NCBI RefSeq assembly: GCF_024639375.1
Contig: NZ_JAHEIM010000004.1
Location: 1 to 64,000, forward strand
Direction: 5' to 3'
Length of the DNA: 64,000 nt
DNA from: Rhodoluna sp.
GTDB taxonomy: Bacteria > Actinomycetota > Actinomycetes > Actinomycetales > Microbacteriaceae
The notes under the pieces are model-generated. The model was not told where the DNA came from. It did no database searches and saw only the letters and a list, made by a program, of their open reading frames with translations. The position numbers were made by a program, and so were the translations under genes. Position 1 is the first letter of the stretch. Every line of letters starts with the position of its first letter. Below, piece after piece: positions 6,478-59,865 of this stretch.

Positions 6478-6483
6478 TAATCT
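6478..6483 (+). promoter_or_regulatory. -10 element for leaderless MFS transcript
   Basis: TAATCT followed by exactly 6 nt and then the ATG at 6490; no Shine-Dalgarno is present. This spacing puts the transcription start at or next to the start codon. Confidence 0.5.
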
Positions 6484-6489
6484 GTCGCT

Positions 6490-7791
6490 ATGACCTCAAC
6501 CACTAAAGAAAAACGCGGCACTTTTGCATGGGCTCTTTGGGACTGGGCCGAACAGCCCTTTCCAACCATCATGCAGACCTTCATCTTTCCGGTTTACTTG
6601 GCCGGTGCCGTAGCCGCTGAGGGAACCAACTCGGATGCGTTGCTTGGCCTAGCGACCGGCGTAGCCGGTTTTTTGGTTGCAATCATGGCCCCGGTATTTG
6701 GCCGCCGATCTGATGAAACCGGCAAGCGCAAATTCTGGTTGATGGTGAACACCTATCTATTGGTTGCCGTCATGGTTGCCGCCTTCTTTGTGATGCCAGA
6801 CCCGAGCTTCTTGTTGTTTGGTTTGGTTCTGTATGGCGTGGGTTCAGTTATTCAAGAGTCAGCGTTCATCAACTACTACGCAATGCTTCGTCAGGTGTCG
6901 ACTCCAAAATCAATCGGTAGAGTCTCTGGTTTAGCTTGGGGCCTCGGATACGCCGGCGGAATTTTGCTGTTGTGCATTTCACTGTTTGGTTTCATCTTGC
7001 CAGGAGACATCTTTGGCATCGACGTGACTGATTCACTCAACATTCGAATCGTGTTCTTGTTCTGTGCAATTTGGTTCGCACTGTTTTCAATTCCGCTTTT
7101 CCGCACTGTTCCAGAAATCGAAGCTCGTGCCGGTTTGAAAAACGAATCAATCTTGCAGTCATACGTAAAACTTTGGTCACAACTTAAATCACTGCACCGT
7201 CAAGCACCAGAAACTTTGAAGTTCTTGATTTCATCTGCAATTTATCGCGATGGCCTCGCGGGTGTTTTCACTTTCGGTGCCGTGCTCGGTTCTTTGGCCT
7301 TCGGATTTTCACAAACCGAAATCATCTTGTTTGGAATCGCCGCGAATGTGGTTGCCGGCATCGGTGCGGCAATTGGCGGTTTGATTGACGACAGGATTGG
7401 CTCTCGCGCAGTAATTATTATTTCGCTCGTTGGCCTATTAGTTGCAGGCTCTGCCGTGTTCGCATTTGCCAGCGCAGGCGTAATCACCTATTGGATCGGC
7501 GGATTGTTCCTGTGTCTATTCGTTGGCCCAGCACAAGCGGCCAGTCGCACATTCGTTTCACGCTTCACACCACCGGGTCGTGAAGGCGAAGTGTTTGGTC
7601 TCTACCAAACCACAGGTCGCGCTGTTTCGTTCTTGTCGGGTTTCATGTGGGCGGGTTCAATCACAGTCGCAACAATTATGTTCAACATCAAAGACGCAAC
7701 AATTTTTGGCGTCATCGGTTTGATGATCATTTTGCTGGTTGGTTTGATCCTGCTGTTGCAGGTTAAAGACAAGCCAGAGGTTTACGCCTAA
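6490..7791 (+). CDS. MFS transporter, UMF1/Atg22-like family
   Basis: Integral membrane protein of 433 aa with about twelve hydrophobic segments. The N-terminus WALWDWAEQPFPTIMQTF matches the W-D-W/A-N-x-a-F motif of Atg22-like (UMF1) major facilitator proteins, and the loop FGRRSDETGKRK is the MFS motif between TM2 and TM3. The substrate is unknown; characterised relatives move amino acids or peptides, but that cannot be extended here. It is transcribed divergently from dnaK and shares the intergenic region with a HAIR site and a perfect inverted repeat. Leaderless translation is likely. Confidence 0.85.
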   Translation: MTSTTKEKRGTFAWALWDWAEQPFPTIMQTFIFPVYLAGAVAAEGTNSDALLGLATGVAGFLVAIMAPVFGRRSDETGKRKFWLMVNTYLLVAVMVAAFFVMPDPSFLLFGLVLYGVGSVIQESAFINYYAMLRQVSTPKSIGRVSGLAWGLGYAGGILLLCISLFGFILPGDIFGIDVTDSLNIRIVFLFCAIWFALFSIPLFRTVPEIEARAGLKNESILQSYVKLWSQLKSLHRQAPETLKFLISSAIYRDGLAGVFTFGAVLGSLAFGFSQTEIILFGIAANVVAGIGAAIGGLIDDRIGSRAVIIISLVGLLVAGSAVFAFASAGVITYWIGGLFLCLFVGPAQAASRTFVSRFTPPGREGEVFGLYQTTGRAVSFLSGFMWAGSITVATIMFNIKDATIFGVIGLMIILLVGLILLLQVKDKPEVYA

Positions 7792-7803
7792 ATAGTTCTC
7801 GCG

Positions 7804-9018
7804 CTAACTAAAGAGTTCCTCGGCAATAATTTCGCCGGGATCTATTCCGCGCGCAATTGCAAACGTTGCCGAACCAATCGGTGTTGTCCACTTATTGAGC
7901 AGATCAAACTGGGCCAATCGCCGCTGAACCGGCAAGTATTGCTTGCTCAGGTCGCGGGCATAGGCAGTCCAGAGCAGCCCGGCTTCTAGCTGACCGGCAC
8001 TGGCATCGAGCACTTGGTAGTTGAATGGGCGCCTGAAGAAAATTTCGTCAAGATTCTGCGAAGCAGCACGGCGGATGTGCGCGAACTCTGGAATCACCTT
8101 TAGGCCGCGATCATCCACCGCTTCAAAATCAATCGCATCGCGTTCGTTGGTTTTACCCAATGGCGCCCCTGTGTCTAGGTGTCGACCAATGACCGCTTCC
8201 TTTTCGGTGCGACCAAGCAGATCCCAGGTATTCAAGTTCATTCGTATTCTGCGCAGCGCTAGTTGAGTGCCGCCAACAATCCATGCCGGCCCATCATCAA
8301 TCCAAACGCGTTGAGCAAAATTCTCGGTGCCAAGTTCTGGGTTATCGGTGCCGTCTACCTGGCCCATCAGGTTTCTTTGTGTAACACCCTCAGGCACGGT
8401 GCCCACGGCATTGGTGAAACCGTTTTGCAACCAGTGCATTTTTGCAAACGATTTGCTATCGCTAATTAACGTGCGGGTCACGTGATTCATAATTTGCAAA
8501 TCATCGGCGGCGATATGCAGCAGCACATCACCGTCGCAATATTCTGATTGCAATTCATCGATTGAAAATTTTGGGATGGCGTCAAAGCTAGCTGGCTGGT
8601 TCGATTCGAGTTTCAGTTTCTTAAATAAACTCGGGCCAAATCCAACGGTGATAGAAAGATTGGCTGCGCCAACAAACACGTCGGGTTGCGGGTCAGCTAG
8701 GGCTGGAATTCCCGCGCACATTGTTGAGATGTTGTCGGTGAGCAAAACCATCCAACGCAGCATGTCATCCGCGGTGATGTTGGGCAAAATGTTTAGCGCC
8801 ACAAAATTCGTGTGCGCTTGCGCACGAGATTCGATTCCGGCTTGATGCTTGCCGTGCCAGGTGAGTTTTGATTTCGCTAATTTTGAACCTGCAAGTTTTT
8901 GGGCTGCCGCGAAGCCCTCACGATAAGCATTGGCAGCATCGGCTCCCGAAATTATCGAAGTCGCACCAGCGCCAACAGTTGCAATACTGCCAAACAAAAT
9001 TTGTCTGCGAGTTAACAA
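7804..9018 (-). CDS. Dyp-type heme peroxidase, Tat-exported (EfeB-like)
   Basis: Dye-decolorizing peroxidase family. The catalytic GxxDG motif is GQVDG at about residues 219-223, and the proximal heme histidine is in EFAHIRRA (His314). The N-terminus begins MLTRRQILFG, a twin-arginine signal followed by a hydrophobic stretch and Ala-rich cleavage region, so the enzyme is expected outside the membrane. The start is a TTG placed directly after the stop of the upstream PCuAC gene, so translation is probably coupled. EfeB-type DyPs take part in iron uptake or peroxide use; no efeU or efeO is next to it, so the physiological role is open. Confidence 0.88.
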   Translation of the reverse strand: MLTRRQILFGSIATVGAGATSIISGADAANAYREGFAAAQKLAGSKLAKSKLTWHGKHQAGIESRAQAHTNFVALNILPNITADDMLRWMVLLTDNISTMCAGIPALADPQPDVFVGAANLSITVGFGPSLFKKLKLESNQPASFDAIPKFSIDELQSEYCDGDVLLHIAADDLQIMNHVTRTLISDSKSFAKMHWLQNGFTNAVGTVPEGVTQRNLMGQVDGTDNPELGTENFAQRVWIDDGPAWIVGGTQLALRRIRMNLNTWDLLGRTEKEAVIGRHLDTGAPLGKTNERDAIDFEAVDDRGLKVIPEFAHIRRAASQNLDEIFFRRPFNYQVLDASAGQLEAGLLWTAYARDLSKQYLPVQRRLAQFDLLNKWTTPIGSATFAIARGIDPGEIIAEELFS

Positions 9019-9552
9019 TTACTTGGTTGCACTCATCGAAGGCATAGGCATTGGGCTAGGTGAATAACTTTCGCCACCGGCCGCTGAGATTTTGCCGATC
9101 AAATTCTTGATTGTGACAACTTTGGATTTTGCTGTGCCAAAGGTGCCGGTGAATGTAAGTTTTAAATCAACCAAGGTGCCTGGCAAGATTTTTTTCTTCA
9201 GGTTCAGCAACATCACGTGCAAACCACCTGGTTGCAACATCACCGACTTGCCCGGCGCAATTTTGATTCCGCCGTTTTTCTTGGCCATTACGCCATCAAC
9301 AACCTGGTGCACCTCAACCACACCAGCAAAAGATGTTGTGCCGCCGGTTAGAGTCACGGTCTTGCTGGTTCGATTTGTGATTTTGGCAAAAACACCAGTC
9401 ATCATCATGGCTTGGTCGGCATTAGCTGCCGAACGAACCCACGCGCGGGTGACAACAACGTCGTTGGTTGCGGCGGTTGCGGCCGGGGTTATCCCGAGTG
9501 AAATAGTCATTGCTGCTACCAGTGAAAGGGCCACGGCAAACTTGCTGCGCAT
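9019..9552 (-). CDS. secreted PCu(A)C-type copper chaperone
   Basis: A signal peptide (MRSKFAVALSLVAAMTISLG, cleavage near AATA) is followed by a PCuAC domain. Copper-ligand residues fit the family H-M-x(n)-M-x(n)-H-x-M pattern: VEVHQVVDGVM and then LQPGGLHVMLLN. The tail is rich in Ser/Pro/Met (SPSPMPMPSMSATK), which could add copper contacts. PCuAC proteins deliver Cu(I) to cytochrome oxidase outside the membrane, which matches the CtaG/CopD fusion encoded a few kilobases away. The DyP gene starts at the very next base, making a two-gene unit. Confidence 0.87.
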   Translation of the reverse strand: MRSKFAVALSLVAAMTISLGITPAATAATNDVVVTRAWVRSAANADQAMMMTGVFAKITNRTSKTVTLTGGTTSFAGVVEVHQVVDGVMAKKNGGIKIAPGKSVMLQPGGLHVMLLNLKKKILPGTLVDLKLTFTGTFGTAKSKVVTIKNLIGKISAAGGESYSPSPMPMPSMSATK

Positions 9553-9617
9553 TTTGTACCTACTTTTTTAGAACCTTAGTCGGATTCTATTTCTGTAGGT
9601 GTTGCGTCTCTAGGGAG

Positions 9618-9633
9618 TGTTACCTAACCTGAC
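9618..9633 (-). promoter_or_regulatory. possible DtxR/IdeR-like iron-box half site
   Basis: On the minus strand the sequence TCAGGTTAGGTAAC resembles the left arm and centre of the actinobacterial iron box (TTAGGTTAGGCTAACCTAA), but the right arm is not conserved. It lies about 70 bp upstream of the PCuAC-DyP pair. Weak by itself; recorded because a DyP peroxidase is a plausible iron-controlled target. Confidence 0.25.
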
Positions 9634-9643
9634 TGGCAGGCAA

Positions 9644-10234
9644 TTACTGCTCGAGCGGAGCGTTGCCCACGTCGGTGCGGTAGAAGTTCATGTATGAACG
9701 AGACGCGGTTGGGCCACGCTGACCCTGGTAGCGGTTCAGGTACTTGTCTGAACCGTAAGGGGTCTCTGAAGGCGATGACAGCTGGAAGAAGCACAACTGG
9801 CCAATCTTCATTCCAGGCCAAAGCTTGATTGGCAAAGTTGCCATGTTTGAAAGCTCCAGGGTCACGTGACCGTTAAAGCCTGGGTCAACAAAACCAGCGG
9901 TCGAGTGAGTCACCAAACCAAGGCGCCCGAGTGAGCTCTTGCCCTCAAGTCGAGCGGCCACGTTGTCTGGCAGTGAAACAAATTCAAAGGTCGAGCCAAG
10001 CACGAATTCGCCCGGGTGCAAGATGAATGGCTCATCCGGGGCAACCTCAATTAGGCGGGTTAGCTCGTTCTGGTCTTCGGATGGGTCGATGTAGGCGTAC
10101 TTGTGGTTGTCAAACAGGCGAAAGAATCGGTCGATGCGCACATCGAAAGACGATGGCTGCAACAAATTCATATCAAGTGGGTCTAGCCCAATTTGGCCGG
10201 CTTCAATGGATGCGCGGATATCGCGGTCTGACAT
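9644..10234 (-). CDS. dcd: dCTP deaminase
   Basis: Converts dCTP to dUTP (and in some actinobacteria directly to dUMP) for thymidylate synthesis. Family features are [61 protein letters not shown] (catalytic region) and [11 protein letters not shown]. Length 196 aa is normal. Two ATGs are possible: 10240 (MLMSD) and 10234 (MSDRD). The second has a -10 TAGACC at 10242-10247, 7 nt upstream, and suits leaderless translation, so it is chosen. Confidence 0.95.
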
Positions 10235-10256
10235 AAGCATGGGTCTAGGTTACCGT

Positions 10257-11621
10257 TCAGAAGAGCTTTTCTATGGCTTTGCTGGCGCCTCGCATAAACC
10301 TGAGCACATCGGCATCAACCATGATGTCGCTCATGCGAATGGCGCGGGTTAGATAGAGCCCCTCGAGCGATCGCACACGGCTAAGCGCCACATAGGTCTG
10401 CCCTGGGCTGAAAGCTCCGCGACCCATATCGATAACCACTTCGTCGTAGGTCTGACCCTGCGATTTGTGAACGGTTACGGCCCAAGCCAATCGCAGGGGA
10501 ATTTGCTGGAACTCAGCCAGCGGCACCGCAACCAAAACCTCTTTGACCTTGCCGGTCTCTTCATCGAACTGTTCGTCGATTTCGTAGCGCACTTTCTCCC
10601 AGGTGCTGCGACCCACATCAAACGTCTCGCCATCAACTTCAACCACAACGCCACCCGATGAAGGCAGGTCAATCACGTGGCCAATGGTTCCGTTTACCCA
10701 GCGCTTGATCACGCGTCCATCCGCGGATTTTTTAGTGTTGCTGTCATCGTTCTTGATGAACATCACCTGGGCGCCAACCTTGAGTTCCAGGATTGGTTCA
10801 GCAGGTAGTGTGCGGCCGAAGGCCTGTTGATCTGCGGCGCTAAAAATTGCGTCGAAACGTTTTGGCTTGGTGGTCAGGCGAGACATGCGCGCATGGTTCA
10901 CCGAATTCACCGATTCGTTGAGCGTTGCCAAACGAATCACGTCGTCGTGTGGTGGAAAGCGATTGCCGCATTGGTTGATGTAGTCGAGCATTTCTTGCGT
11001 GCAGGAGCCATCGCGAATTGCATTAAGAATTTCTTTGAAGTGCTCATCGTGCTGACGAAAGATTTCGCTTAGTTCAAATCGCTCGAGTGAATCTTCGCGC
11101 CAAACATGCGCATCAAAAAACCATGAGCTCTGATAGTTTTCGGCCATGTAGGCACGCTCTTCGGCATTGCCCGGCACTGGTGCCAATTGATACGGGTCAC
11201 CAAACATCACAACCTGTGCGCCACCGAAAGGTAGTTTGCGGCGACCACGAGCAATTCCCATTGCGCGACTGATGGTATCCATCATGTCGGCGTTAACCAT
11301 CGACACTTCGTCGATCACGAGCATATCGATTTTGCCGAGCACTTCGCGAGTGCGTCGATTCATATGACGACCGATATCTTCGGTGCCCAAAATTCCAAAC
11401 GGAAAACCAAATAGCGAGTGAATTGTCACACCGCCAACGTTGAGTGCGGCCACGCCAGTTGGCGCACAAACCGCAACCTTCTTTTTGGTGTTTTCAATCA
11501 GGTATGACAGAAGGGTGCTCTTGCCAGTTCCGGCTCGGCCGGTAACAAAAATATTATTTTCAGAGGCTTCGATGTAATCGAAAAGATTTTGCTGCTCAGT
11601 GGAGAGAGTGATCTCTTGCAT
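10257..11621 (-). CDS. PIF1/RecD-like SF1B DNA helicase
   Basis: 454-aa superfamily 1B helicase. Walker A is TGRAGTGKST (residues 27-36), motif II is LVIDEVSMV (about 98-106), motif III is MFGDPYQLAPV, and the C-terminal motif VTVHKSQGQTYDEVVID with YVALSRV completes the RecD2/PIF1 core. A small SH3-like insert is plausible at GAQVMFIKND...RWVNGTIGHV. It lacks nuclease or accessory domains. Such proteins unwind 5'-3' and act in replication-fork or recombination tasks; the specific role here is unknown. Its ATG overlaps the upstream gene stop as TAATG. Confidence 0.88.
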   Translation of the reverse strand: MQEITLSTEQQNLFDYIEASENNIFVTGRAGTGKSTLLSYLIENTKKKVAVCAPTGVAALNVGGVTIHSLFGFPFGILGTEDIGRHMNRRTREVLGKIDMLVIDEVSMVNADMMDTISRAMGIARGRRKLPFGGAQVVMFGDPYQLAPVPGNAEERAYMAENYQSSWFFDAHVWREDSLERFELSEIFRQHDEHFKEILNAIRDGSCTQEMLDYINQCGNRFPPHDDVIRLATLNESVNSVNHARMSRLTTKPKRFDAIFSAADQQAFGRTLPAEPILELKVGAQVMFIKNDDSNTKKSADGRVIKRWVNGTIGHVIDLPSSGGVVVEVDGETFDVGRSTWEKVRYEIDEQFDEETGKVKEVLVAVPLAEFQQIPLRLAWAVTVHKSQGQTYDEVVIDMGRGAFSPGQTYVALSRVRSLEGLYLTRAIRMSDIMVDADVLRFMRGASKAIEKLF

Positions 11622-13603: not shown

Positions 13604-14052
13604 TACTTAAGCCTAGGCACAAACCTTCCGGTGCGTTTCATGTAGTTGGCATAGCCGGAGTATTTCTTCACAAGCAACGTTTCTTCCCAACGAGCCTTGT
13701 AATTCAACAGAAGCACTAGCGCGCACCACACGACTAGCTTGGCTAGGTCAAGCGTTTGCACCGCGGATCCGAGGCTGGCCAACATTAGGCCGGTATAAAT
13801 CGGGTGGCGCAGATATTTATAAATGCCGGTTTCGACTAATTCGGCATCGCTTTTGGGCACTGGATTAGCCGCGAGCGAACGGCCGAGGTTTTTGATGCCT
13901 AAATAAAGCACGATGATGCCAGGGGCAACCAGCAAGATGCCTCCGATGTAGATGGCGGCGATGTTTATTTGGCCACTCGGCCACAGCACAACGAATGCAA
14001 TTAGTGCGAATTGCACGAGCACTAATAGGTTGCCTTTTGATTTATCACTCAT
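13603..14052 (-). CDS. isoprenylcysteine carboxyl-methyltransferase-like membrane protein
   Basis: 149 aa with three to four hydrophobic segments at the N-terminal half and a C-terminal ICMT/PEMT-type catalytic signature: LVETGIYKYLRHPIYTGLML, then YKARWEETLLVKKYSGYANY and RFVP. Bacterial members are SAM-dependent methyltransferases of mostly unknown lipid or small-molecule substrate. It is the first gene of a three-gene unit with CopD/CtaG and the helicase. A -10 TAGCCT placed 6 nt before the ATG predicts a leaderless message. Confidence 0.8.
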   Translation of the reverse strand: MSDKSKGNLLVLVQFALIAFVVLWPSGQINIAAIYIGGILLVAPGIIVLYLGIKNLGRSLAANPVPKSDAELVETGIYKYLRHPIYTGLMLASLGSAVQTLDLAKLVVWCALVLLLNYKARWEETLLVKKYSGYANYMKRTGRFVPRLK

Positions 14053-14058
14053 TGTCTT

Positions 14059-14064
14059 AGGCTA
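14059..14064 (-). promoter_or_regulatory. -10 element for leaderless ICMT-CopD/CtaG-helicase operon
   Basis: TAGCCT on the minus strand, 6 nt before the ATG at 14052; no Shine-Dalgarno in between. Confidence 0.5.
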
Positions 14065-14095
14065 CGACCGCACTGCATAAATCAACACTGTGTAT

Positions 14096-14126
14096 AAAAG
14101 AAAAGGCACCCGCTTTCGCGGATGCC
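14096..14126 (-). terminator. rho-independent terminator downstream of HU
   Basis: On the minus strand GGCATCCGC-GAAA-GCGGGTGCC forms a 9-bp stem with one G-T pair and a GNRA tetraloop, followed by TTTTCTTTT. It lies 22 nt after the HU stop codon. Confidence 0.9.
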
Positions 14127-14147
14127 TTCTCTAATTCTTTTAAAGAC

Positions 14148-14426: not shown

Positions 14427-14581
14427 TTGGTCCTCCTGGACATTTAGACGTTTTGACGTACTGTCGGTAATCACGCTACTGCCCAATAAAAACTTGTCAT
14501 TCATCTCGCTCGGCGTGTTGTGGCGCGGATTTTGACAAAGTTGCCAGATTTTTAGCGGTATATCGGCCCGTTGGGGTGGTT

Positions 14582-14619: not shown

Positions 14620-14641
14620 TCAAAAACTTGTTATTTGATGA

Positions 14642-18423: not shown

Positions 18424-18439
18424 AGCCCAAGGGTAAGTC

Positions 18440-21982: not shown

Positions 21983-22020
21983 CTAGACCAATTTACTTGC
22001 TCAGATGGCACAATCGAAAC

Positions 22021-25191: not shown

Positions 25192-25425
25192 TTACTTTAG
25201 GCGCGGTTCGTTTGGATCGCGTGGGTCTTCTTTAACCATCAACGCAAGTGTTGCGATTGAAACAATCGAAACAATAAAAGTGATTGCAGCCCAGATGAAT
25301 GTGGTGTTCATATCGCGAACGCCACCCCATACCAAGACGCCAACGAACACTGCCGCAACGGTGGACAGGGTTAGGTAGCTGCGTAGGCTCTTAGCCTCAG
25401 CTTTTTTCTTTTCTGGTTTTGCCAT
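25192..25425 (-). CDS. small two-TM membrane protein, unknown function
   Basis: 77 aa: a lysine-rich N-terminus (MAKPEKKKAEAKSLRSYLTL), two hydrophobic helices (about 19-36 and 43-63) and a charged tail KEDPRDPNEPRLK. Not recognised. It follows another small membrane protein gene in the same direction, and has its own -10 TAGGCT 6 nt before the ATG, so a leaderless transcript is likely. Confidence 0.7.
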   Translation of the reverse strand: MAKPEKKKAEAKSLRSYLTLSTVAAVFVGVLVWGGVRDMNTTFIWAAITFIVSIVSIATLALMVKEDPRDPNEPRLK

Positions 25426-25431: not shown

Positions 25432-25437
25432 AGCCTA
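25432..25437 (-). promoter_or_regulatory. -10 element for leaderless small membrane protein gene
   Basis: TAGGCT on the minus strand, 6 nt before the ATG at 25425. It overlaps the end of the upstream gene region. Confidence 0.45.
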
Positions 25438-25944
25438 TGCCTTTGTTGTTCGAGGTGATGCGGCGGAAATTCCAAGGTGCACCGCAAGCAAAATTGCATA
25501 GGCGCCAAAGAAACCAACGCGACTAACTGAGTCGGCTGCATCGGTAATTGAGATTTGTGAAAGCAAAAGGAAGATTGCAAGCCCTGAGTTGATCAAAAAA
25601 TCGCGACGGTCAATAGTTTTCTTGCCTGCGCGTAGCGCAAAAATTAATTCGAGAATTGCGCCGAATAATCCCCAAGACATTAAAAGAATCCAGGCTTGAG
25701 TTGTGGCTTCATTTGCAACGAAAGATTGTGAGTAAGCAATCATCGCCATGGCACCAATCGCCACGATTGAATGCAAAATAATCGACTGGCGTTTGAACAC
25801 TGCAACTGCGGATGCCAACACCCAGCCGATTGACAAAATCAACAGGCCCAACATGGCAACTTGCGCATCATGCTTTTGCGAAAAAGTGATGAGCAGGCCG
25901 GCAACAAGAGCAGCCGAGGCTTGGATGATTTGTGAAATGCGCAC
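25435..25944 (-). CDS. multi-pass membrane protein, unknown function
   Basis: 169 aa with about five hydrophobic segments; starts MRISQIIQASAALVAGLLIT and ends SAASPRTTKA. A short basic loop LRAGKKTIDRRDFL lies between TM segments 4 and 5. No family recognised; HdeD/DUF308-like topology is possible. The start is GTG 25944, supported by TAGATT 6 nt upstream. Likely paired with the 77-aa membrane protein 9 bp downstream. Confidence 0.65.
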   Translation of the reverse strand: MRISQIIQASAALVAGLLITFSQKHDAQVAMLGLLILSIGWVLASAVAVFKRQSIILHSIVAIGAMAMIAYSQSFVANEATTQAWILLMSWGLFGAILELIFALRAGKKTIDRRDFLINSGLAIFLLLSQISITDAADSVSRVGFFGAYAILLAVHLGISAASPRTTKA

Positions 25945-25950
25945 GTGTTA

Positions 25951-25956
25951 AATCTA
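25951..25956 (-). promoter_or_regulatory. -10 element for leaderless GTG-start membrane protein gene
   Basis: TAGATT on the minus strand, 6 nt before the GTG at 25944. Confidence 0.45.
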
Positions 25957-25997
25957 GGCCTTCAATTTCAAACGGCTTGCCGTTTCAAAGGTGAAAG

Positions 25998-26028
25998 TGA
26001 ATATGAAGGCTTTATGCCTTCATATTCA
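25998..26028 (-). terminator. hairpin overlapping the dnaB stop codon
   Basis: A perfect 13-bp stem, TGAATATGAAGGC-ATAAA-GCCTTCATATTCA on the minus strand. Its 5' arm encodes the last DnaB codons (M-N-M-K) and the loop contains the TAA. There is no T-run immediately after it; a second short hairpin AAACGG-CAAG-CCGTTT follows about 20 nt downstream. It may end dnaB transcription or protect the 3' end. Confidence 0.55.
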
Positions 26029-30980: not shown

Positions 30981-30986
30981 TAGAGT
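30981..30986 (+). promoter_or_regulatory. -10 element for leaderless NUDIX-DUF6049-murJ operon
   Basis: TAGAGT 6 nt before the ATG at 30993, with no Shine-Dalgarno. Confidence 0.5.
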
Positions 30987-34963: not shown

Positions 34964-34969
34964 TAGACT
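34964..34969 (+). promoter_or_regulatory. -10 element for leaderless aminotransferase gene
   Basis: TAGACT 6 nt before the ATG at 34976; no Shine-Dalgarno. Confidence 0.5.
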
Positions 34970-52275: not shown

Positions 52276-52282
52276 GTTCGGT

Positions 52283-52311
52283 TTGTAGCCAAGCCGTTTT
52301 TCGTGTAATGT
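52283..52311 (+). promoter_or_regulatory. tRNA-Ile/tRNA-Ala promoter
   Basis: TTGTAG at 52283-52288 and TAATGT at 52306-52311 with a 17-nt spacer. The predicted start near 52318 lies a few bases before the tRNA-Ile 5' end. Confidence 0.6.
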
Positions 52312-52325
52312 CGTAAAGGTTCTAC

Positions 52326-52402
52326 GGGCCTATAGCTCAGGTGGTTAGAGCGCTTCACTGATAATGAAGAGGTCGGAGGTTCAAGTCCTCCTAGGCCCAC
52401 CA
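52326..52402 (+). tRNA. tRNA-Ile (GAT)
   Basis: Full cloverleaf: acceptor GGGCCTA/TAGGCCC, D-arm GCTCAGGTGGTTAGAGC, anticodon arm CTTCACTGATAATGAAG with anticodon GAT, T-arm GGAGG-TTCAAGT-CCTCC and discriminator A. The terminal CCA is encoded in the DNA (52400-52402). Confidence 0.98.
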
Positions 52403-52468
52403 GGAAGCCTTTCTCAACTGAGATTTGGATTCCAAACGTAGAAACAGCACCAAACCGGTATCAGATCC

Positions 52469-52541
52469 GGGGACTTAGCTCAGTTGGTAGAGCACCTGCT
52501 TTGCAAGCAGGGGGTCAGGGGTTCGACCCCCCTAGTCTCCA
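52469..52541 (+). tRNA. tRNA-Ala (TGC)
   Basis: Acceptor GGGGACT/AGTCTCC (one G-U pair), D-arm GCTCAGTTGGTAGAGC, anticodon arm CCTGCTTTGCAAGCAGG with anticodon TGC, T-arm AGGGG-TTCGACC-CCCCT and discriminator A. The CCA end is not encoded; the following bases are CGA. Confidence 0.98.
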
Positions 52542-52547
52542 CGAAAC

Positions 52548-52581
52548 AAAATCGCCTTCCTAAACAGGGAGGCGATTTTCT
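52548..52581 (+). terminator. terminator after the tRNA pair
   Basis: AAAATCGCC-TTCC-TAAACA-GGGA-GGCGATTTT forms a long stem (nine perfect outer pairs, then a looser top) and continues into TTTTCTTGTTT. It lies 6 nt after tRNA-Ala. Confidence 0.9.
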
Positions 52582-52597
52582 TGTTTAAGTGGGCATT

Positions 52598-52603
52598 TAG
52601 GCT
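52598..52603 (+). promoter_or_regulatory. -10 element for leaderless monooxygenase gene
   Basis: TAGGCT exactly 6 nt before the ATG at 52610. Confidence 0.5.
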
Positions 52604-52609
52604 AGAGCA

Positions 52610-52894
52610 ATGACAAATTTCGATCTTTCAGCAATCTTCACTCCAATGCCGGAGTACCTAGATGAGATTCGCGCCTACCTTCTTTCAATCAGTGAAGAAG
52701 TTCGCAACGAACCAGGCTGTAATTTCTATGACCTGTATGACGAAGCCACCGGCAAGCTTGTTTTTATTGAGCAGTGGGCGTCTCGAGAAGACTGGCTGAA
52801 GCACAACGATGCGCCGTCGGTCGCAAAGATTACTCAGTTTGTTGAGGGCAAATTAAATGCTCCCGTCGAACTTTTGTTGCTAACCAAAATCTAA
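52610..52894 (+). CDS. antibiotic biosynthesis monooxygenase (ABM) domain protein
   Basis: 94-aa ferredoxin-like ABM fold: PMPEYLDEIRAYLLSISEEV, RNEPGCNFYDLYDE and FIEQWASREDWLKHNDAPSV. Such proteins often are quinol monooxygenases or detoxifying enzymes of the YgiN type. First gene after the tRNA block, with TipAS and LysE genes downstream at 2 nt and an 8-nt overlap, forming a small operon. Physiological substrate unknown. Confidence 0.82.
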   Translation: MTNFDLSAIFTPMPEYLDEIRAYLLSISEEVRNEPGCNFYDLYDEATGKLVFIEQWASREDWLKHNDAPSVAKITQFVEGKLNAPVELLLLTKI

Positions 52895-52896
52895 GA

Positions 52897-53238
52897 ATGA
52901 GTTGGTTTCAAGACTCAACTGCCAATCACGCTTCACAACATGTGAATAGTGAGAAGCATGATGAATATCGTCGTGGTCACGAACACATCGCAAAAAATCT
53001 TGCCGACCTAATGCGCGCTGGCAAAACCATCGATGACATCGATGTGCAACATTGGATTGGCAAGCACTACGAGTTTGTTTGTCAGTTTTGGACTCCAACC
53101 AAAATTGCTTATAAGGCTCTGGCGCTAACCTATGTAATGGATCCGGCGTTCAAAGCAACCTACGAAGCATTCGAACCAGGGCTCGCAAAATTCATTCAAA
53201 CAGCAATCAATATTTGGGCCGAGGCAAATCTTGAATAA
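52897..53238 (+). CDS. stand-alone TipAS-domain protein
   Basis: 113 aa, helical: an N-terminal segment (SEKHDEYRRGHEHIAKNLAD), then DIDVQHWIGKHYEFVCQFWT, YKALALTYVMDPAFKATYEA and PGLAKFIQTAINIWAEAN, the pattern of the TipAL/TipAS antibiotic-binding domain. The MerR DNA-binding half of TipAL is missing. TipAS domains bind thiopeptide-like or diverse hydrophobic drugs, so this may sequester a toxic compound; the function here is inferred from the fold only. Confidence 0.72.
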   Translation: MSWFQDSTANHASQHVNSEKHDEYRRGHEHIAKNLADLMRAGKTIDDIDVQHWIGKHYEFVCQFWTPTKIAYKALALTYVMDPAFKATYEAFEPGLAKFIQTAINIWAEANLE

Positions 53239-53854
53239 CACGCACGGCCTAATTGCATTCCTGCCAGGTTTCTTCTCTGGCCTTTCACTTATTGCGGCAA
53301 TTGGCGCACAGAATGCCTACATAATTCGCCAGGGATTAACTCGTCAATACACATTGATGATTGTGTTGTTCTGCGCGGCTGCGGATGCGCTGTTGATTTC
53401 TGTTGGTGTTGCTGGTTTGGGTGCGTTGGTTGCTAGCTTGCCTTGGTTGCTCGAGATCATCCGCTGGTTCGGTGTTGCATTTATAACTTGGTTTGGAATC
53501 ACGAGTTTGATCGCTGCAACCAAGAACGATTACTTGACGCCTGCCGAAGCAACTCAGCAATCGCGCGGCAAAGTTCTAGCAACTCTCTTTGCGCTAACTT
53601 TTTTGAACCCGCACGTTTACCTAGACACACTTCTGTTTTTGGGCAGCCTGTCAACAACCTTTGGTGACAATCGCTGGTTCTTTGCCTTTGGTGCAATGAC
53701 AGCCAGTGTGGTGTGGTTCTTTGTTTTAGGCTTTGGCGCCAAAGCTGCGTCAAGGTTTATGTCGCGACCAATCTTTTGGCGCGTGCTCGACATTTTTATT
53801 GCTGCCGTGATGTTCACACTTGCAATCACGCTGGCGTTTTATCGCTTTGCCTAG
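53231..53854 (+). CDS. LysE/ArgO family amino-acid exporter
   Basis: 207 aa, six TM helices, with LIAAIGAQNAYIIRQGLTRQ and FALTFLNPHVYLDTLLFLGS, the LysE/ArgO motifs. These proteins export lysine or arginine, particularly when peptides are taken up. TTG start at 53231 overlaps the TipAS stop. No LysG-type regulator lies next to it. Confidence 0.87.
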   Translation: MNNTHGLIAFLPGFFSGLSLIAAIGAQNAYIIRQGLTRQYTLMIVLFCAAADALLISVGVAGLGALVASLPWLLEIIRWFGVAFITWFGITSLIAATKNDYLTPAEATQQSRGKVLATLFALTFLNPHVYLDTLLFLGSLSTTFGDNRWFFAFGAMTASVVWFFVLGFGAKAASRFMSRPIFWRVLDIFIAAVMFTLAITLAFYRFA

Positions 53855-53892
53855 CTGGGAATGAACCAAGCCCCGCCGGCGTTGAGGTAGGC

Positions 53893-54375
53893 ATGAGCCT
53901 TGAAAACGTAGAACTAATCATGCTGGATGGCACCACTCGAAACTTCTCTGAATTCGCGGGCCAAATGGTGTTGGTCGTAAATGTCGCTTCGCGTTGTGGC
54001 CTCAGCCCGCAGTATGAAGCCCTGGAGAAACTACAAAAAACCTATGGTGACAAAGGTTTCACCGTTCTAGGTGTGCCATCGAATCAGTTTCTACAAGAAC
54101 TGAAAACAAGTGATGACATCGCTGAGTACTGCAGCACTACCTGGGGTGTAACTTTTCCGATGACTGAAAAGGCTGCAGTCAATGGCAAGGGTCGCCATGA
54201 GCTCTATAAAGAACTAGTCAAAACTAAAGATCGCGCCGGATTAGCTGGCCCGGTGCTTTGGAACTTCGAGAAGTTTCTGATTTTGCCAAACGGTGAGATT
54301 CACCGATTTAGACCAACTACCGTGCCTGACGATGCAGAAATTATTTCGTTAATCGAAGCGAACTTATCAAAATAG
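53893..54375 (+). CDS. glutathione/thioredoxin peroxidase (GPx-type, Cys form)
   Basis: 160 aa with the catalytic tetrad region NVASRCGLSPQY (Cys, not Sec), VLGVPSNQF and WNFEKFLI. Thiol peroxidases of this class in bacteria without glutathione use thioredoxin, which fits trxA/trxB in the window. ATG 53893; in-frame codons upstream overlap lysE and are not conserved. Its 3' end overlaps the convergent MFS gene by 35 bp. Confidence 0.9.
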   Translation: MSLENVELIMLDGTTRNFSEFAGQMVLVVNVASRCGLSPQYEALEKLQKTYGDKGFTVLGVPSNQFLQELKTSDDIAEYCSTTWGVTFPMTEKAAVNGKGRHELYKELVKTKDRAGLAGPVLWNFEKFLILPNGEIHRFRPTTVPDDAEIISLIEANLSK

Positions 54376-55543
54376 CTGCGCCTAAACCAAGCACTCCAGA
54401 AATCACCAGAGGCACGGTTCCGAAGCCGCCACCAAGATTCCAAGTCAGTCCTGCCCAGATTCCGGCAATCAAAATGCCGAAACCACTGAGGCCCTGAAGT
54501 CTTGCCTGCACGGTCATCTGTTGGTGATCGGGTGCCAACTTAGACACCCAAGACTTGCCGACCACGTCGTTGGCTGCGGCGAAGCCACCATAGATTGCAA
54601 TCAAAAGAATTGTGATCGCGGGGTCGCTGGTTAGACCCAGGCCGGCATAGGCCACAGCGAAGCAAACCAAACCAATGGCATACACATACTGGGGTTTGAC
54701 GCGGTCGGCCAGCATTCCCATCGGAAAGCTGAGGGCGGCATAGCAAATGTTGAACAAGAGGTAGATTGCAACAACCTGCATCACGTCGAACCCCACCTGG
54801 CTCACGTGCAGAATCAGAAGCGCATCAGGAAAATTCACCAAAGCAAACAACGACAGCAAAGTGACAACCCTGGAAACCCGAGAATCAAGCTTCTGAGAGA
54901 TCTCCGGGTTGTCTTCGGCGGCAACTCCCAAGCTCGGTTTGGCGCGTAGTCGGGTGCGTGGCTCGGTGTCTTTTATAAACAGCACTGCCACCACGGATAG
55001 CACCGCGGGAATGACGGCTATCCAAAGCACGGGGCGAATGTCGTTGTTGAATAGCGACAGCATGGCAAGCGCCAAAAGCGGGCCGATAACCGCGCCGGTG
55101 GTATCTGAGGTGCGGTGAAAGCCAATCACTCGACCGCGGTGGGTTTTATCGACGCCCTGCACCAATATGGCATCGCGCGCTGCCGAGCGCATTCCTTTGC
55201 CAAGGCGATCAACCACTCGGCCAACCAAAACCATTGGCCAAATGCTGGCCAGGGCAACAAATACCTTACCCAGAGCGGCACCGCCATAGCCCAAAAACAC
55301 CATCATCTTGCGCGGAATGTATCGATTGATCCCCCCAGAAGCTAGTTTGGTGGCGGCCATTGCGCCCTCGGCGGCACCTTCGATAGCGCCAACTACTGCC
55401 GCGGGTGCACCGAGCACGCTGTTTAGCAACACCGGCATGATTGGGTAGAGCATCTCGCTGGAGGCGTCTTGCAAAAGCGAAACCCAAGAAATGGCGGCCA
55501 GGTTTCTGGTCAACCAAACTGGTCTGCGGTTTCGCTTTGTCAT
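54341..55543 (-). CDS. MFS transporter
   Basis: 400 aa with about twelve TM helices. The N-terminus ISWVSLLQDASSEMLYPIMP is typical of the MFS group that carries SLLxDxSSEM, and a motif-A-like VVDRLGKGMRSAARDAIL follows TM2-TM3. Substrate unknown; relatives are annotated only as putative drug or sugar exporters. The stop codon of the CHAD gene (55543) meets the start here, so they may be co-transcribed. Confidence 0.85.
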   Translation of the reverse strand: MTKRNRRPVWLTRNLAAISWVSLLQDASSEMLYPIMPVLLNSVLGAPAAVVGAIEGAAEGAMAATKLASGGINRYIPRKMMVFLGYGGAALGKVFVALASIWPMVLVGRVVDRLGKGMRSAARDAILVQGVDKTHRGRVIGFHRTSDTTGAVIGPLLALAMLSLFNNDIRPVLWIAVIPAVLSVVAVLFIKDTEPRTRLRAKPSLGVAAEDNPEISQKLDSRVSRVVTLLSLFALVNFPDALLILHVSQVGFDVMQVVAIYLLFNICYAALSFPMGMLADRVKPQYVYAIGLVCFAVAYAGLGLTSDPAITILLIAIYGGFAAANDVVGKSWVSKLAPDHQQMTVQARLQGLSGFGILIAGIWAGLTWNLGGGFGTVPLVISGVLGLGAAILISSLRLTK

Positions 55544-56298
55544 CAGAATCGCAGTTTAGCCCCCATCAACCCGCGCAGTTCAAATTGCTGATTGGCCAAC
55601 AATTGGTCGAGCTGTTGGTCGCCATCATTGGCCTGTAACCAATTGCGTGCAATCACTAAATCGTTGAAGTCGCCAAGCATGGTCTGAGCGGCGACGAGTT
55701 TAGTAACTTTTGCTGCCATCTTTTGGTTGGGTGTATGCAGAATGCAAACTTCACCGAGATAGCGCACACGCTTAGTTGCAATTCGAAGTTGATGCAGCTT
55801 TCTATCGCTCGATTTTTTGAAACTAACATCCCGCGTCATTTTCTTGAGTTCACGATAGCGATGTTTAAAAAGCGGTTTGGCAAACTTCATGAATTCACGC
55901 ACGAAACGTTTTTTCATTTTTGCATTTTGCAAAAAGTTTTGTAATTCCAAAAACATTTCATCGCAGCGCGGGCTGTTGATTGCTTCAGCTAGCAACTTTT
56001 GTTGAGCAGTTGATTTAACCCCCACGACCTTGCGCAAGACAGAGGCATCTCGCACCGCGCTAATCAAGTCGTCAATCCAAGAAAGCTCTATCAACAATGC
56101 ACGAAGGCGCTCTTTGTCTTCAAATAAGAACGACAAGTTCTTTAGATTAGAGCGAACCTCGCGCAAACCAACGCGAAAATCATGCAACTCTTCGGGTGCT
56201 TTGGCATCAAGCATGAACTCTTTGTGCGCCATCATCTTTGCAACGGATTGCAAAAACAAATTGCGAATTTGATGCTCGGTTTCTTTGTAGTCACCCAT
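55543..56298 (-). CDS. CHAD-domain protein
   Basis: 251 aa, mostly helical. CHAD signatures ELHDFRVGLREVRSNLKNLS and KLHQLRIATKRVRYLGEV provide the paired histidines and many Arg/Lys residues that bind polyphosphate. It has no CYTH partner domain. CHAD proteins localise to polyphosphate granules in other bacteria; the sequence here shows the basic helical core. ATG 56298 is chosen over an in-frame GTG at 56307. No ppk gene is in the window. Confidence 0.87.
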   Translation of the reverse strand: MGDYKETEHQIRNLFLQSVAKMMAHKEFMLDAKAPEELHDFRVGLREVRSNLKNLSFLFEDKERLRALLIELSWIDDLISAVRDASVLRKVVGVKSTAQQKLLAEAINSPRCDEMFLELQNFLQNAKMKKRFVREFMKFAKPLFKHRYRELKKMTRDVSFKKSSDRKLHQLRIATKRVRYLGEVCILHTPNQKMAAKVTKLVAAQTMLGDFNDLVIARNWLQANDGDQQLDQLLANQQFELRGLMGAKLRF

Positions 56299-56313
56299 CA
56301 GAGTCACATTGAC

Positions 56314-57330
56314 TTACAAAATTTCGGCGCCAATAATGCGAATCACTTCAGCACAGGTCGCAATGTTTGCAATTGAGTCTGCGTGAGATTCATAAGGTGA
56401 TTCCATAAGTCCCTGGTCAACAAAGCTAGCCAGTGCAGTTGCCTGGTATGACAAACCTTCGTGACCCACCACACCGGTTTCGTCGTGCCAAAATTCGGTT
56501 GGTGCACCAAAATCAACGGGAGAAATGCCAACACTTCCCGGAATAAAGAACTCTGGGCCAACGGTGAGCTTGGCTTTTGAACCACCAACCTGAGCAGGGC
56601 CGTGAATGGCAGCGCGTGCCGAAAGCAAAATGTAGGCGCGAGCTCCTGACTCATAGCCAAGCTGAACTGACACTTCTTCTTCAACACCGTTTGGGTGAAG
56701 CACCGCTTGAGCGGTGATGGTTTTTGGGTTGCCCAAGAAGGTCTGAACAAAACTCACCGGATAAATGCCCATGTCGAAGAACGGGTCACCGTGACCCTTC
56801 TTCCACAGACGACCAATCTCAAGGTTGGCCTGGCACATGCTGACATTCACAATGTCGATGTCACCCAAGGTGTTGGCTTCAATTAACTGACGAATAAGGT
56901 CATACTGCGGCAGGTAGCGAGTCCACATTGCCTCCATGACCAGCACACCTGCAGCATTGGCAGCGGCAAAGATTTCCTCGGCCTCGGCAACATCCAAAGT
57001 GATTGGTTTTTCAATCAACACATGCTTGCCAGCGGCGATTGCCATGAGTGCGTGATCGCGGTGCTGAGTAGGCAAGGTGGGAATGTAGACAACATCAATG
57101 TCTTCGCGAGCTAACAAAGACTCGTAATTGTCATACGCATCGATGCCGAACTCAGCGGCAAAATTTTCGGCCTTACCAGGGGTGCGCGATGCAACGGCAA
57201 CAATCTTTTGAGTTGTGTGTTTTTGCACGCCGGTCACAAATGCGTGTGCAATAGCGGCCGCGCCCAAGATGCCCCAACGCAACGTTGAAACAGATTTTGG
57301 GTCAATGACATTTGGTTTAGGCAGGCTCAT
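56314..57330 (-). CDS. Gfo/Idh/MocA-family NAD(P)-dependent oxidoreductase
   Basis: 338 aa. The Rossmann domain carries WGILGAAAIAHAFVTGVQKH, VAVASRTPGKAENFAAEFGI and the E-K-P motif HVLIEKPITLDVAEAEE. The C-terminal catalytic domain has GDPFFDMGIYPVSFVQTFLG. Oxidises sugars or inositol-like polyols; the substrate is not identifiable. Has its own leaderless promoter, with TAGACT 6 nt before the ATG. Confidence 0.9.
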   Translation of the reverse strand: MSLPKPNVIDPKSVSTLRWGILGAAAIAHAFVTGVQKHTTQKIVAVASRTPGKAENFAAEFGIDAYDNYESLLAREDIDVVYIPTLPTQHRDHALMAIAAGKHVLIEKPITLDVAEAEEIFAAANAAGVLVMEAMWTRYLPQYDLIRQLIEANTLGDIDIVNVSMCQANLEIGRLWKKGHGDPFFDMGIYPVSFVQTFLGNPKTITAQAVLHPNGVEEEVSVQLGYESGARAYILLSARAAIHGPAQVGGSKAKLTVGPEFFIPGSVGISPVDFGAPTEFWHDETGVVGHEGLSYQATALASFVDQGLMESPYESHADSIANIATCAEVIRIIGAEIL

Positions 57331-57336
57331 GCATGC

Positions 57337-57342
57337 AGTCTA
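57337..57342 (-). promoter_or_regulatory. -10 element for leaderless Gfo/Idh gene
   Basis: TAGACT on the minus strand, 6 nt before the ATG at 57330. Confidence 0.5.
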
Positions 57343-58377
57343 AACGTTCTGCCTTGCTGCAAAGTTAAGAATCTCGCGTGCCAATGCGTAGTCAAGTCGC
57401 CGGCGCCGTTTGCCATTTTTGTCGTTGCCCTTAAACGGTGCCAACACCAAATCTTGTGATTCACCGCGGATACTCGCAAGCCGCTCATTCGCAATGCGAA
57501 TTACTTCTGCAATCTGTGCATCACTCAGGTTTGGCATCTCGACATATGTCATCAAGCGGGAACTGTGACTAACTTTGCCAGCGGCATATTTGAAATCCTT
57601 AGCCAACATGAATGCAATCGGCGTGACACCGTCACTGCTGTCTACTGCTCGCAAACCAATGCGACCAGCGGCAACATTGAAGTGAATTACAGATTTTTTG
57701 TAATTCGAGAATTTGCGTAAAGCCAAAAGCGCATCGAGCTCGCCAATCTTTTTGTTATTCACAAACACTTGGCTTTTCTTGGCAGTAGGCCCAAAACAGG
57801 CAACCACTGCAGGCGCCTCGGTGTCGCTAAACAAGTCACCCTCAATGACCGAAACCAATTGCAAGCGTGACTTATCAAAACTCGACAGCAAGAAAGTCTC
57901 TGGAACAATCGCCACAACATAGTCGGCTACCGCAAGAGATCTATCGAGTGCCAACTTATAGAGGTTGTCGAAACCCTTGGCGAAATACTTAGCCACCAGC
58001 GAATCAACGCCCTTGCGCTTAGCTGAGTGGTTGGCCAAGTAAGGCGGGTTGGTAATAATCACTGCGCCGGCCGGGTTGGCAATCTTTTTGAGTGAGTCAT
58101 TCTTTGGCCAATGCTTGCTGGCGATATCGAAACCCTGAATCGCGACACCAAATTCGGCAGCAACCAAATGCAGCAGGTGGCCATCCCCAGCAAATGGGTC
58201 TAAGGCAACTGGTGAAGCCGCAAATGCCTCGGATAAAAACTTGCGTACCGGTTTGTTTAGCCAGGCGCTGTCGGTGGTGAAAAACTCACCGCGCGAAACT
58301 TTACCCGCGTCGATTTTTGTAATTCGACCACGCTCGGCCGAAACCAGCATTTCGCCTAGCCGGCGCCCTTTTTGCAT
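57340..58377 (-). CDS. orphan N6-adenine DNA/RNA methyltransferase (NPPY class)
   Basis: 345 aa. SAM motif VALDPFAGDGHLLHLVAAEF and the catalytic NPPY in AVIITNPPYLANHSAKRKGV indicate amino-methylation of adenine. The N-terminal part EFFTTDSAWLNKPVRKFLSE resembles type II modification enzymes. No endonuclease or specificity subunit is adjacent. The C-terminal segment is rich in Lys/Arg. ATG 58377 is preferred over an upstream in-frame start because CAGACT lies 6 nt before it. Could alternatively modify rRNA. Divergent from ppiA. Confidence 0.75.
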   Translation of the reverse strand: MQKGRRLGEMLVSAERGRITKIDAGKVSRGEFFTTDSAWLNKPVRKFLSEAFAASPVALDPFAGDGHLLHLVAAEFGVAIQGFDIASKHWPKNDSLKKIANPAGAVIITNPPYLANHSAKRKGVDSLVAKYFAKGFDNLYKLALDRSLAVADYVVAIVPETFLLSSFDKSRLQLVSVIEGDLFSDTEAPAVVACFGPTAKKSQVFVNNKKIGELDALLALRKFSNYKKSVIHFNVAAGRIGLRAVDSSDGVTPIAFMLAKDFKYAAGKVSHSSRLMTYVEMPNLSDAQIAEVIRIANERLASIRGESQDLVLAPFKGNDKNGKRRRRLDYALAREILNFAARQNV

Positions 58378-58383
58378 ACGACG

Positions 58384-58389
58384 AGTCTG
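58384..58389 (-). promoter_or_regulatory. -10 element for leaderless methyltransferase gene
   Basis: CAGACT on the minus strand, 6 nt before the ATG at 58377. Confidence 0.4.
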
Positions 58390-58422
58390 CCATGAGCCGG
58401 CTCTCGTGCCAGAATAGTGAGC

Positions 58423-58953
58423 ATGACTCAGCACACATCAGTAGCCACTATCCACACCAACCACGGAGCAATCAAGATCAACCTATTTGGTCTGCACGCT
58501 CCCAAGACCGTTGAGAACTTTGAGGGCCTAGCCACCGGTTCTATCGAATGGCGCGACCCACGCACCGGCGCGACCCAGACCAACAAGCCGCTTTACAACG
58601 GCGTAATTTTTCACCGCATCATTCAGCAGTTCATGCTGCAGGGTGGCGACCCAACCGGCACCGGCATGGGCGGCCCTGGCTACCAGTTCGGCGATGAGAT
58701 CAACTCAGAGCTCAACTTCAACGAGCCTTTCAAGCTAGCCATGGCAAACGCCGGCCCTGGCACCAACGGTTCACAGTTCTTCATCACAACCGCTCCAACC
58801 ACTTGGTTGTTTGGCAAGCACACCGTATTCGGCGAGGTTGCAGACGAGGTTTCAAAGAAGGTTGTTCTGCAGATTGAAGGCGTAGAGACCGACGGTCGCG
58901 ATAAGCCACTTGATGACGTAATCATCGAATCAATCACCATCGAGAAGGTTTAG
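58423..58953 (+). CDS. ppiA: peptidyl-prolyl cis-trans isomerase (cyclophilin)
   Basis: 176 aa cyclophilin: AIKINLFGLHAPKTVENFEG, VIFHRIIQQFMLQGGDPTGT, and NGSQFFITTAPTTWLFGKHTVFGEV (active-site Arg, Phe, His). Cytoplasmic, no signal peptide. First gene of the conserved ppiA-rhomboid pair next to crgA and pknAB. Start ATG 58423; GTG 58417 is possible, but CAGAAT at 58410-58415 favours the ATG in a leaderless message. Confidence 0.95.
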   Translation: MTQHTSVATIHTNHGAIKINLFGLHAPKTVENFEGLATGSIEWRDPRTGATQTNKPLYNGVIFHRIIQQFMLQGGDPTGTGMGGPGYQFGDEINSELNFNEPFKLAMANAGPGTNGSQFFITTAPTTWLFGKHTVFGEVADEVSKKVVLQIEGVETDGRDKPLDDVIIESITIEKV

Positions 58954-59597
58954 TGAACTTCATCACTCAAAGTCGCGCAAAGGTCACACTGGCCTTAGTA
59001 GCGATCAATGTTTTGTTGTGGGTCGGGCAGATTCTGCCCGGCTCGCACCTAACTGAGCAGCTTTTCTTTGCGCCGGCGCTGGCAACCAGCGAACCTTGGC
59101 GCTTCATCACCGCGGGCTTCGTGCACTCTCCGAGCAACCCGCTGCATGTTTTGCTCAACATGTATTCCATTTACATCTTTGGCCAAATTCTTGAGCCAAT
59201 GCTGGGCCGCGTTCGATACCTTGCCCTGTACCTAGTTTCAGTGCTTGGCGGCTCAGTTGCCGTGCTTTACCTGGGCGACCCATACACCCCGGTGGTTGGC
59301 GCATCCGGGGCATTCTTTGGCCTAATGGCCGCCTATTTCGTGGTTTTGCGCTCGGTGGGCGCGGGTTCACGCGGCATGGTCGGCCTGATTGCCATCAACC
59401 TTTTCTTCGGATTCATCGTGCCCGGCATTAGTTGGCAGGGTCACGTGGGTGGTCTGCTAGCCGGTGGTGCAGTGGCTTCGCTTTATGCGGCCACCCGCAA
59501 CGAGCAACAAAAAACCGCCCAAAAGCTAGGTTTGCTAGCGATTGTGGCGGTGTTTGTAGCTTTGGCTATTTATAAAGCCAATAACTTAAGTTTGTAA
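58953..59597 (+). CDS. rhomboid-family intramembrane serine protease
   Basis: 214 aa, six TM segments. The serine motif GASGAFFGLMAAYF and the histidine motif HVGGLLAGGAVASL form the dyad, and HVLLNMYSIYIFG holds the family N-x-x-x-H-like region. Cuts TM helices in the membrane; targets unknown. GTG start overlaps the ppiA stop by one base. The stop lies 1 bp from the convergent crgA stop. Confidence 0.93.
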   Translation: MNFITQSRAKVTLALVAINVLLWVGQILPGSHLTEQLFFAPALATSEPWRFITAGFVHSPSNPLHVLLNMYSIYIFGQILEPMLGRVRYLALYLVSVLGGSVAVLYLGDPYTPVVGASGAFFGLMAAYFVVLRSVGAGSRGMVGLIAINLFFGFIVPGISWQGHVGGLLAGGAVASLYAATRNEQQKTAQKLGLLAIVAVFVALAIYKANNLSL

Positions 59598-59598
59598 T

Positions 59599-59853
59599 TT
59601 ACTTCCAGCGGGTCGACATCATGAAGCCGACCATTGAGATGCCGAAGCCAATCAGGATGTTCCAGTTCTCAAGGTTCCATGGAGTGCCGGCTCCTAGCGG
59701 GAACTGTGCACTGGTCACGTAGTAAGTGATAATCCAGACGAGGCCCAAAAGCATGAAGCCGAACATCAGTGGCTTGAACCAGGCTGGGTTCGGTGCGTCT
59801 TCACCCTTAGGTGCTTGAGGCTTTGCTGGCTTAGTTAGTTTCTTTTCAGACAT
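59599..59853 (-). CDS. crgA: cell division protein CrgA
   Basis: 84 aa: a lysine/proline-rich cytoplasmic N-terminus (KLTKPAKPQAPKGEDAPNPA), two TM helices joined by a short outer loop (TSAQFPLGAGTPWNLENW) and the conserved end GFMMSTRWK. CrgA places FtsI and PBPs at the septum in mycobacteria. TAGAAT 6 nt before the ATG gives an ideal leaderless promoter. Confidence 0.96.
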   Translation of the reverse strand: MSEKKLTKPAKPQAPKGEDAPNPAWFKPLMFGFMLLGLVWIITYYVTSAQFPLGAGTPWNLENWNILIGFGISMVGFMMSTRWK

Positions 59854-59859
59854 GCGCCA

Positions 59860-59865
59860 ATTCTA
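59860..59865 (-). promoter_or_regulatory. -10 element for leaderless crgA
   Basis: TAGAAT on the minus strand, 6 nt before the ATG at 59853. Confidence 0.6.

Follow-up and report, generated by a model that had tools for sequence, protein, structure and literature searches.

A stretch of 64,000 nucleotides from Rhodoluna sp. (Actinomycetota; Microbacteriaceae), hereafter the window (NCBI RefSeq assembly GCF_024639375.1, contig NZ_JAHEIM010000004.1, positions 1 to 64,000 of the forward strand), raises the question of where the messages of its genes begin. An initial annotation of the window listed ten genes that have a hexamer resembling a bacterial -10 promoter element shortly before the start codon and no Shine-Dalgarno (SD) site, and it predicted that their mRNAs are leaderless. 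The ten hexamers do lie exactly six bases before the codon (10/10), nine of them matching TANNNT and that of gene 58377 reading CAGACT, and by the rule used 0/10 of the genes has an SD core (Table 1). In the mechanism considered here, the mRNA would begin at the start codon, with the hexamer six or seven bases upstream acting as the -10 element; the leaderless message would be translated without an SD site, and most genes inside operons would use SD starts instead. We are highly confident of this account for the genes in question, and judged from the sequence it very probably holds for the class and for the majority of the listed genes.

Enrichment of the hexamer before start codons

The window forms contig 5 of a 22-contig draft genome that totals 1,286,990 bases at a completeness of 93.85%, and the sample analyzed consisted of the window and 17 further stretches, 361,082 bases in all. 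A simple gene caller, blind to upstream signals, found 368 genes in this sample, 360 of them usable. The same caller and the annotation chose the same start in 26/40 E. coli genes, so called starts are rough; counts in which every in-frame ATG or GTG is scored are independent of the caller and remove the influence of start choice on the peak.

TANNNT beginning at -12, that is, six bases before the codon, precedes 44/360 called starts, compared with a mean of 3.8 and a maximum of 9 in 200 dinucleotide shuffles. A peak over shuffled upstream sequence at this offset had been set beforehand as one test of the prediction. When all ATG and GTG candidates are counted, 59/788 carry the motif at -12 against 5.2 per other offset, and the identical procedure gave 0/254 on a 100-kb stretch of E. 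coli K-12, whose GC content (51.7%) is similar. Two complete genomes of the same genus gave 30/377 and 26/383, and the three genomes pooled have 115/1548 at -12 against a background of 11.4. The constancy of spacing claimed in the annotation needs some relaxation: the -12 peak is sharp, but -13 is also enriched (36 vs 11.4, pooled), and the spacing is thus six or seven bases. Together, the excesses at -12 and -13 correspond to a fraction of genes of 0.177 for the sample and of 0.197 and 0.153 for the two genus mates, and about 18% of the sampled genes look leaderless on this prediction.

Within the window, TANNNT begins at -12 for 12/69 scorable genes and at -13 for one more (in-frame ATG or GTG near the called start), where chance would give about one per offset (from the sample background of 5.2 per 360 genes). 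The twelve are nine of the ten listed genes together with dcd (10240), 13603 and the znuA-like gene 18423, and the one at -13 is E1alpha (21982). Among the looser cases named in the annotation, dcd therefore has an exact hexamer and E1alpha one at the longer spacing, but only CANNNT precedes purB (CAATAT) and the holin-like gene (CACAAT), both at -12, and ppiA (CAGAAT, at -13). CANNNT overall is not enriched at -12 (34 vs 25.3); a subset of CANAAT, CANACT and CANGAT is (19 vs 4.4), as a weak, post hoc result for motifs picked after the window cases.

The motif is commoner at divergent genes (20/98) than at genes that follow a neighbor on the same strand by less than 20 nt (7/133). The suggestion that operon-internal genes carry AAGGAG-type sites instead describes a tendency and not a strict rule, for 10/44 called genes with the motif (TA-led genes) have such a neighbor ending within 40 nt upstream. 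A bias toward TAG is likewise present, with 33/59 of the -12 matches beginning in this way compared with 39/147 at other offsets (Fisher p ~1e-4), but other genomes share it: in 65 matches pooled from seven other Microbacteriaceae samples, G again leads at the third hexamer position (0.58).

The pattern as a whole is not special to the Rhodoluna genome of the window. In 12/15 genome samples the -12 count was at least four times background. The peak was absent from the other three (G025, 0; G027, 1 at -12 and 6 at -13; G035, 1 at -12 and 2 at -13), in which its lack is no evidence of absence because the caller performs poorly at very high GC.

Evidence for probable initiation on the start codon

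Three observations point to a transcription start site (TSS) on the start codon, namely the lack of an excess at TTG, the near-absence of SD sites, and the separate registers of two flanking bases. With regard to the first, 90/930 ATG and 25/618 GTG candidates have TANNNT at -12 in the three genomes pooled, while TTG candidates have it in 2/731 against a TTG background of 4.9. The -12 matches in the Rhodoluna sample divide into 44 ATG, 15 GTG and 1 TTG, the last being 1/385 TTG candidates (Fisher p ~9e-10 vs ATG plus GTG). A message that begins at its start codon would be expected to have a purine at +1. Second, an SD core precedes 1/44 TA-led genes compared with 86/316 other called genes. Third, G occupies the second position past the hexamer at a frequency of 0.45-0.47 in all three -12 sets (Rhodoluna sample, genus and other-family) and also in the -13 set. 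This equality between spacings ties the place of the G to the hexamer. Within the genus, a T immediately following the hexamer is also hexamer-linked (0.43-0.61); its frequency in other Microbacteriaceae is 0.23. C at -1, at 0.48-0.51 in all four sets, is tied to the start codon; SD-led genes have A 0.49 and C 0.30 at this position. From these results we infer that transcription begins on the A or G of the start codon, that the main sigma factor would read the hexamer, and that ribosomes would initiate at the 5'-terminal AUG or GUG. No -35 peak was found: TTGAC occurs six times in the 115 sequences, scattered and without a fixed register.

The strongest competitor keeps the hexamer as a genuine -10 element and places the TSS 1-3 nt before the codon, or lets a second promoter upstream dominate, which would give very short or ordinary leaders. 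The enrichment at -13 is in keeping with this possibility, as are the counts of 10 each at -14 and -15 (vs 5.2, Rhodoluna sample) and two crgA sequences with TACACT eight bases before the ATG. Nevertheless, matches at -12 outnumber those at -13 roughly three to one (115 vs 36), and both the restriction to ATG and GTG and the start-codon register of the C at -1 fit initiation on the codon itself; we consider such leaders unlikely at these genes.

One might also suppose that TANNNT acts within the mRNA, as an AT-rich, non-SD signal that ribosomes recognize at a set distance from the codon. The fixed distance and the missing SD sites are what such a signal would give, but TTG should then share in the excess, being used at 43/316 starts without the motif and at 0/44 TA-led ones. 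In addition, the flanking composition of the -13 set partly shifts with the hexamer and partly stays, and in M. tuberculosis and C. glutamicum similar TANNNT sequences have been mapped as -10 elements (PMC3898074, PMC3890552), making a ribosome signal very improbable. Chance, or a choice of start codons guided by the motif, has in its favor that 58377 was picked over other in-frame starts where the caller favored 58350, but it is ruled out for practical purposes by a peak that survives the scoring of all in-frame starts, that shuffles do not approach (no more than 9 vs 44), and that E. coli lacks.

Conservation in orthologues

Orthologues in the compared loci were scored for TANNNT six or seven bases before the start. 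Of the ten listed genes, eight conserve the motif, to varying degree (Table 1). Conservation is strong at the NUDIX, 25425, PEMT/ICMT-like, dcd, MFS and crgA genes, partial at 58377, 57330 and the aminotransferase, and nearly nil at 25944. Control genes (pcnA, dnaK, gyrA, a pyridine nucleotide-disulphide oxidoreductase, murJ and dnaB) have the motif in 1/161 orthologues, and the same rule applied at wrong offsets scores 0 to 1 per gene and offset.

Two genes illustrate how the signal varies. Among nine relatives of 58377, six have TACTAT-N6-ATG, one CAGACT-N6-ATG and one CACACT-N6-GTG, and this shared six-base arrangement supports the start at 58377. The aligned ATG of the aminotransferase is preceded by TAGACT or TAAACT in close relatives and by an SD site in others. 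Taken together, the peak, the lack of a TTG excess, the SD depletion and the orthologues at most testable genes support the leaderless interpretation put forward in the annotation, as far as sequence comparison can.

Several results weigh against that interpretation. An intergenic matrix scan away from gene starts gave 62 matches in 205 regions, without the -1 or +1 signature, so that the promoter reading has no cross-check on leadered promoters. The GTG gene 25944 and most aminotransferase orthologues lack the motif. The hexamers at 25425 and 13603 overlap upstream coding sequence, and protein constraint may inflate their conservation. Strong matrix matches do cluster 10-19 nt upstream of starts (27, vs 2-8 in each other 10-nt bin to 149 nt); the reverse-strand control has a similar start-adjacent peak (20), which is taken to come from divergent neighbors.

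The 16S 3' end (anti-SD) was found in 4/40 genus genomes, both complete ones included, and not in the Rhodoluna assembly itself, where the rRNA operon is probably absent from the draft.

The crgA start across the order

The least expected detail of the analysis is the start of crgA. TANNNT stands six or seven bases before the ATG in 69/72 crgA sequences from the genus, the nearest metagenome-assembled genomes (MAGs), named Microbacteriaceae and unnamed MAGs; of the other three, L023 is cut by a contig end and L059 and L066 are the two with TACACT eight bases before the ATG. In other families of the order, including Micrococcaceae, 0/30 sequences are TA-led; an SD site precedes the start in 26, of which 25 begin with GTG, and neither signal is present in the other 4. 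The sequences were grouped by record title, kinship and the family membership of named genera, and L074, one of the 41 placed with other Microbacteriaceae, bears the title Micrococcales only.

Most simply, the TA-led state of crgA would have been gained on the Microbacteriaceae stem. A wider proposal, which we hold tentatively and at slightly less than even confidence, is that start and promoter are fused clade by clade. In crgA, an SD-led and mostly GTG start in the ancestor of the order would have given way to a leaderless ATG on the Microbacteriaceae stem, with the spacing later drifting between six and seven bases; the aminotransferase within the genus would still be alternating between TA-led and SD-led states at the same ATG. 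If so, leaderless starts are gained as well as lost, and the direction can be read gene by gene. The crgA boundary offers a clean natural comparison of one gene with and without a leader.

The crgA spacing is six bases in 14/22 near relatives and seven in 36/41 other Microbacteriaceae sequences. A six-base spacing specific to the genus, as crgA might suggest, is not found genome-wide, since six bases leads in most samples of the family. In the pooled loci around crgA, seven bases is as common as six or commoner, but the same genes recur there.

Sites in the window and their neighbors

Table 1. Hexamers before start codons in the window, with motif conservation among orthologues in the compared loci
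Hexamer	Spacing and start codon	Hexamer position	Strand	Gene or product	Orthologues
TAATCT	N6, ATG 6490	6478..6483	+	MFS/Atg22-like transporter	N6 or N7 in 20/26
TAACCT	N6, ATG 10240	10247..10252	-	dcd	10/11
TAGGCT	N6, ATG 13603	13610..13615	-	CopD/CtaG protein; site within 3' end of PEMT gene	7/8
TAGCCT	N6, ATG 14052	14059..14064	-	PEMT/ICMT-like methyltransferase	9/10
TACCCT	N6, ATG 18423	18430..18435	-	znuA-like	0 orthologues in compared loci
TAAATT	N7, ATG 21982	21989..21994	-	dehydrogenase E1 (E1alpha; Pfam)	single orthologue, neither signal
TAGGCT	N6, ATG 25425	25432..25437	-	77-aa protein without Pfam match	24/26, remaining 2 with SD
TAGATT	N6, GTG 25944	25951..25956	-	169-aa protein without Pfam match	TANNNT in 1/18; weak case
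TAGAGT	N6, ATG 30993	30981..30986	+	NUDIX	27/27 (N6 16, N7 11)
TAGACT	N6, ATG 34976	34964..34969	+	class I/II aminotransferase	7/28 TANNNT, 11 SD, 10 neither
TAGGCT	N6, ATG 52610	52598..52603	+	ABM-domain protein	0 orthologues in compared loci; weak case
TAGACT	N6, ATG 57330	57337..57342	-	GFO/IDH/MocA oxidoreductase	3/7
CAGACT	N6, ATG 58377	58384..58389	-	weak sub-threshold Eco57I match only	TANNNT in 6/9
TAGAAT	N6, ATG 59853	59860..59865	-	crgA	N6/N7 in 69/102 rows overall

Some features of the surroundings deserve mention in their own right. The position of the 13603 site suggests a leaderless promoter inside an operon, ahead of the CopD/CtaG gene. A 67-nt gap at 25945-26012 separates the dnaB-like gene from 25944; in relatives, the 25944 gene directly follows the stop codon of the dnaB-like gene. 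The gene at 57340-58377 (minus strand) was found in 11/40 searched genomes of the genus, its own genome and one very weak match included. Between the tRNA pair after gyrA and ppiA/crgA, the 52610-57330 region holds accessory-looking genes (ABM, TipAS, glutathione peroxidase, GFO/IDH/MocA) and is possibly a variable spot near the origin. Among named genomes, the closest matches to the window's amidotransferase come from MAGs of Microbacteriaceae (one, 88%), Micrococcales (two, 80-82%) and Rhodoluna (one, 78%); Aquiluna stands at 70%.

Relation to known systems

The general principle of leaderless TA-led genes is already established and is a well-known actinobacterial habit. The initial annotation called the pattern marked, which overstates matters, since it is the published norm for Actinobacteria. 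What is modestly new is that crgA switches by clade and that the G after the hexamer and the C at -1 keep separable registers. In practical terms, start codons become settable from sequence alone in a widespread freshwater lineage with weak start annotation, and genes that should not depend on a ribosome-binding leader become identifiable. In the open-licence literature, no leaderless or TSS study of Microbacteriaceae or Rhodoluna was found, nor any title or abstract that combines leaderless with crgA.

The closest comparison is with the TA-led genes described by Zheng et al. 2011 (PMC3160421), who reported TANNNT about 12 bp upstream in 86/89 actinobacterial genomes, at an average of 19.2% of genes (range 2.3-29.8); the main text of that paper names neither Microbacteriaceae nor Clavibacter. 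The motif, its place and the lack of an SD site are the same in Rhodoluna, the predicted fraction of about 18% is close to this average, and there is no difference in kind. In C. glutamicum, where 5' ends were mapped by RNAseq, the -10 element is reported as TAnnnT and 33% of mRNAs as leaderless, all of them starting with AUG (~79%) or GUG (~21%) (PMC3890552). The codon use of the Rhodoluna -12 set (44 ATG, 15 GTG, 1 TTG) is similar, the Rhodoluna set being predicted from sequence. M. tuberculosis is likewise described as having a TANNNT -10 element, no conserved -35 and a preference for purine starts, with 26% of genes that have a primary TSS being leaderless (PMC3898074). The lack of a -35 element is thus common to both organisms, whereas the leaderless genes are mapped in M. 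tuberculosis and predicted in Rhodoluna.

More widely, leaderless transcription has been predicted in 21.6% of bacterial species (PMC9581028). In Deinococcus-Thermus, experiments reported in 2025 show that a TANNNT adjacent to the open reading frame (ORF) drives leaderless genes, subject to requirements on its spacing (PMC12340547). The phylum differs, but in both cases TANNNT lies directly beside the ORF.

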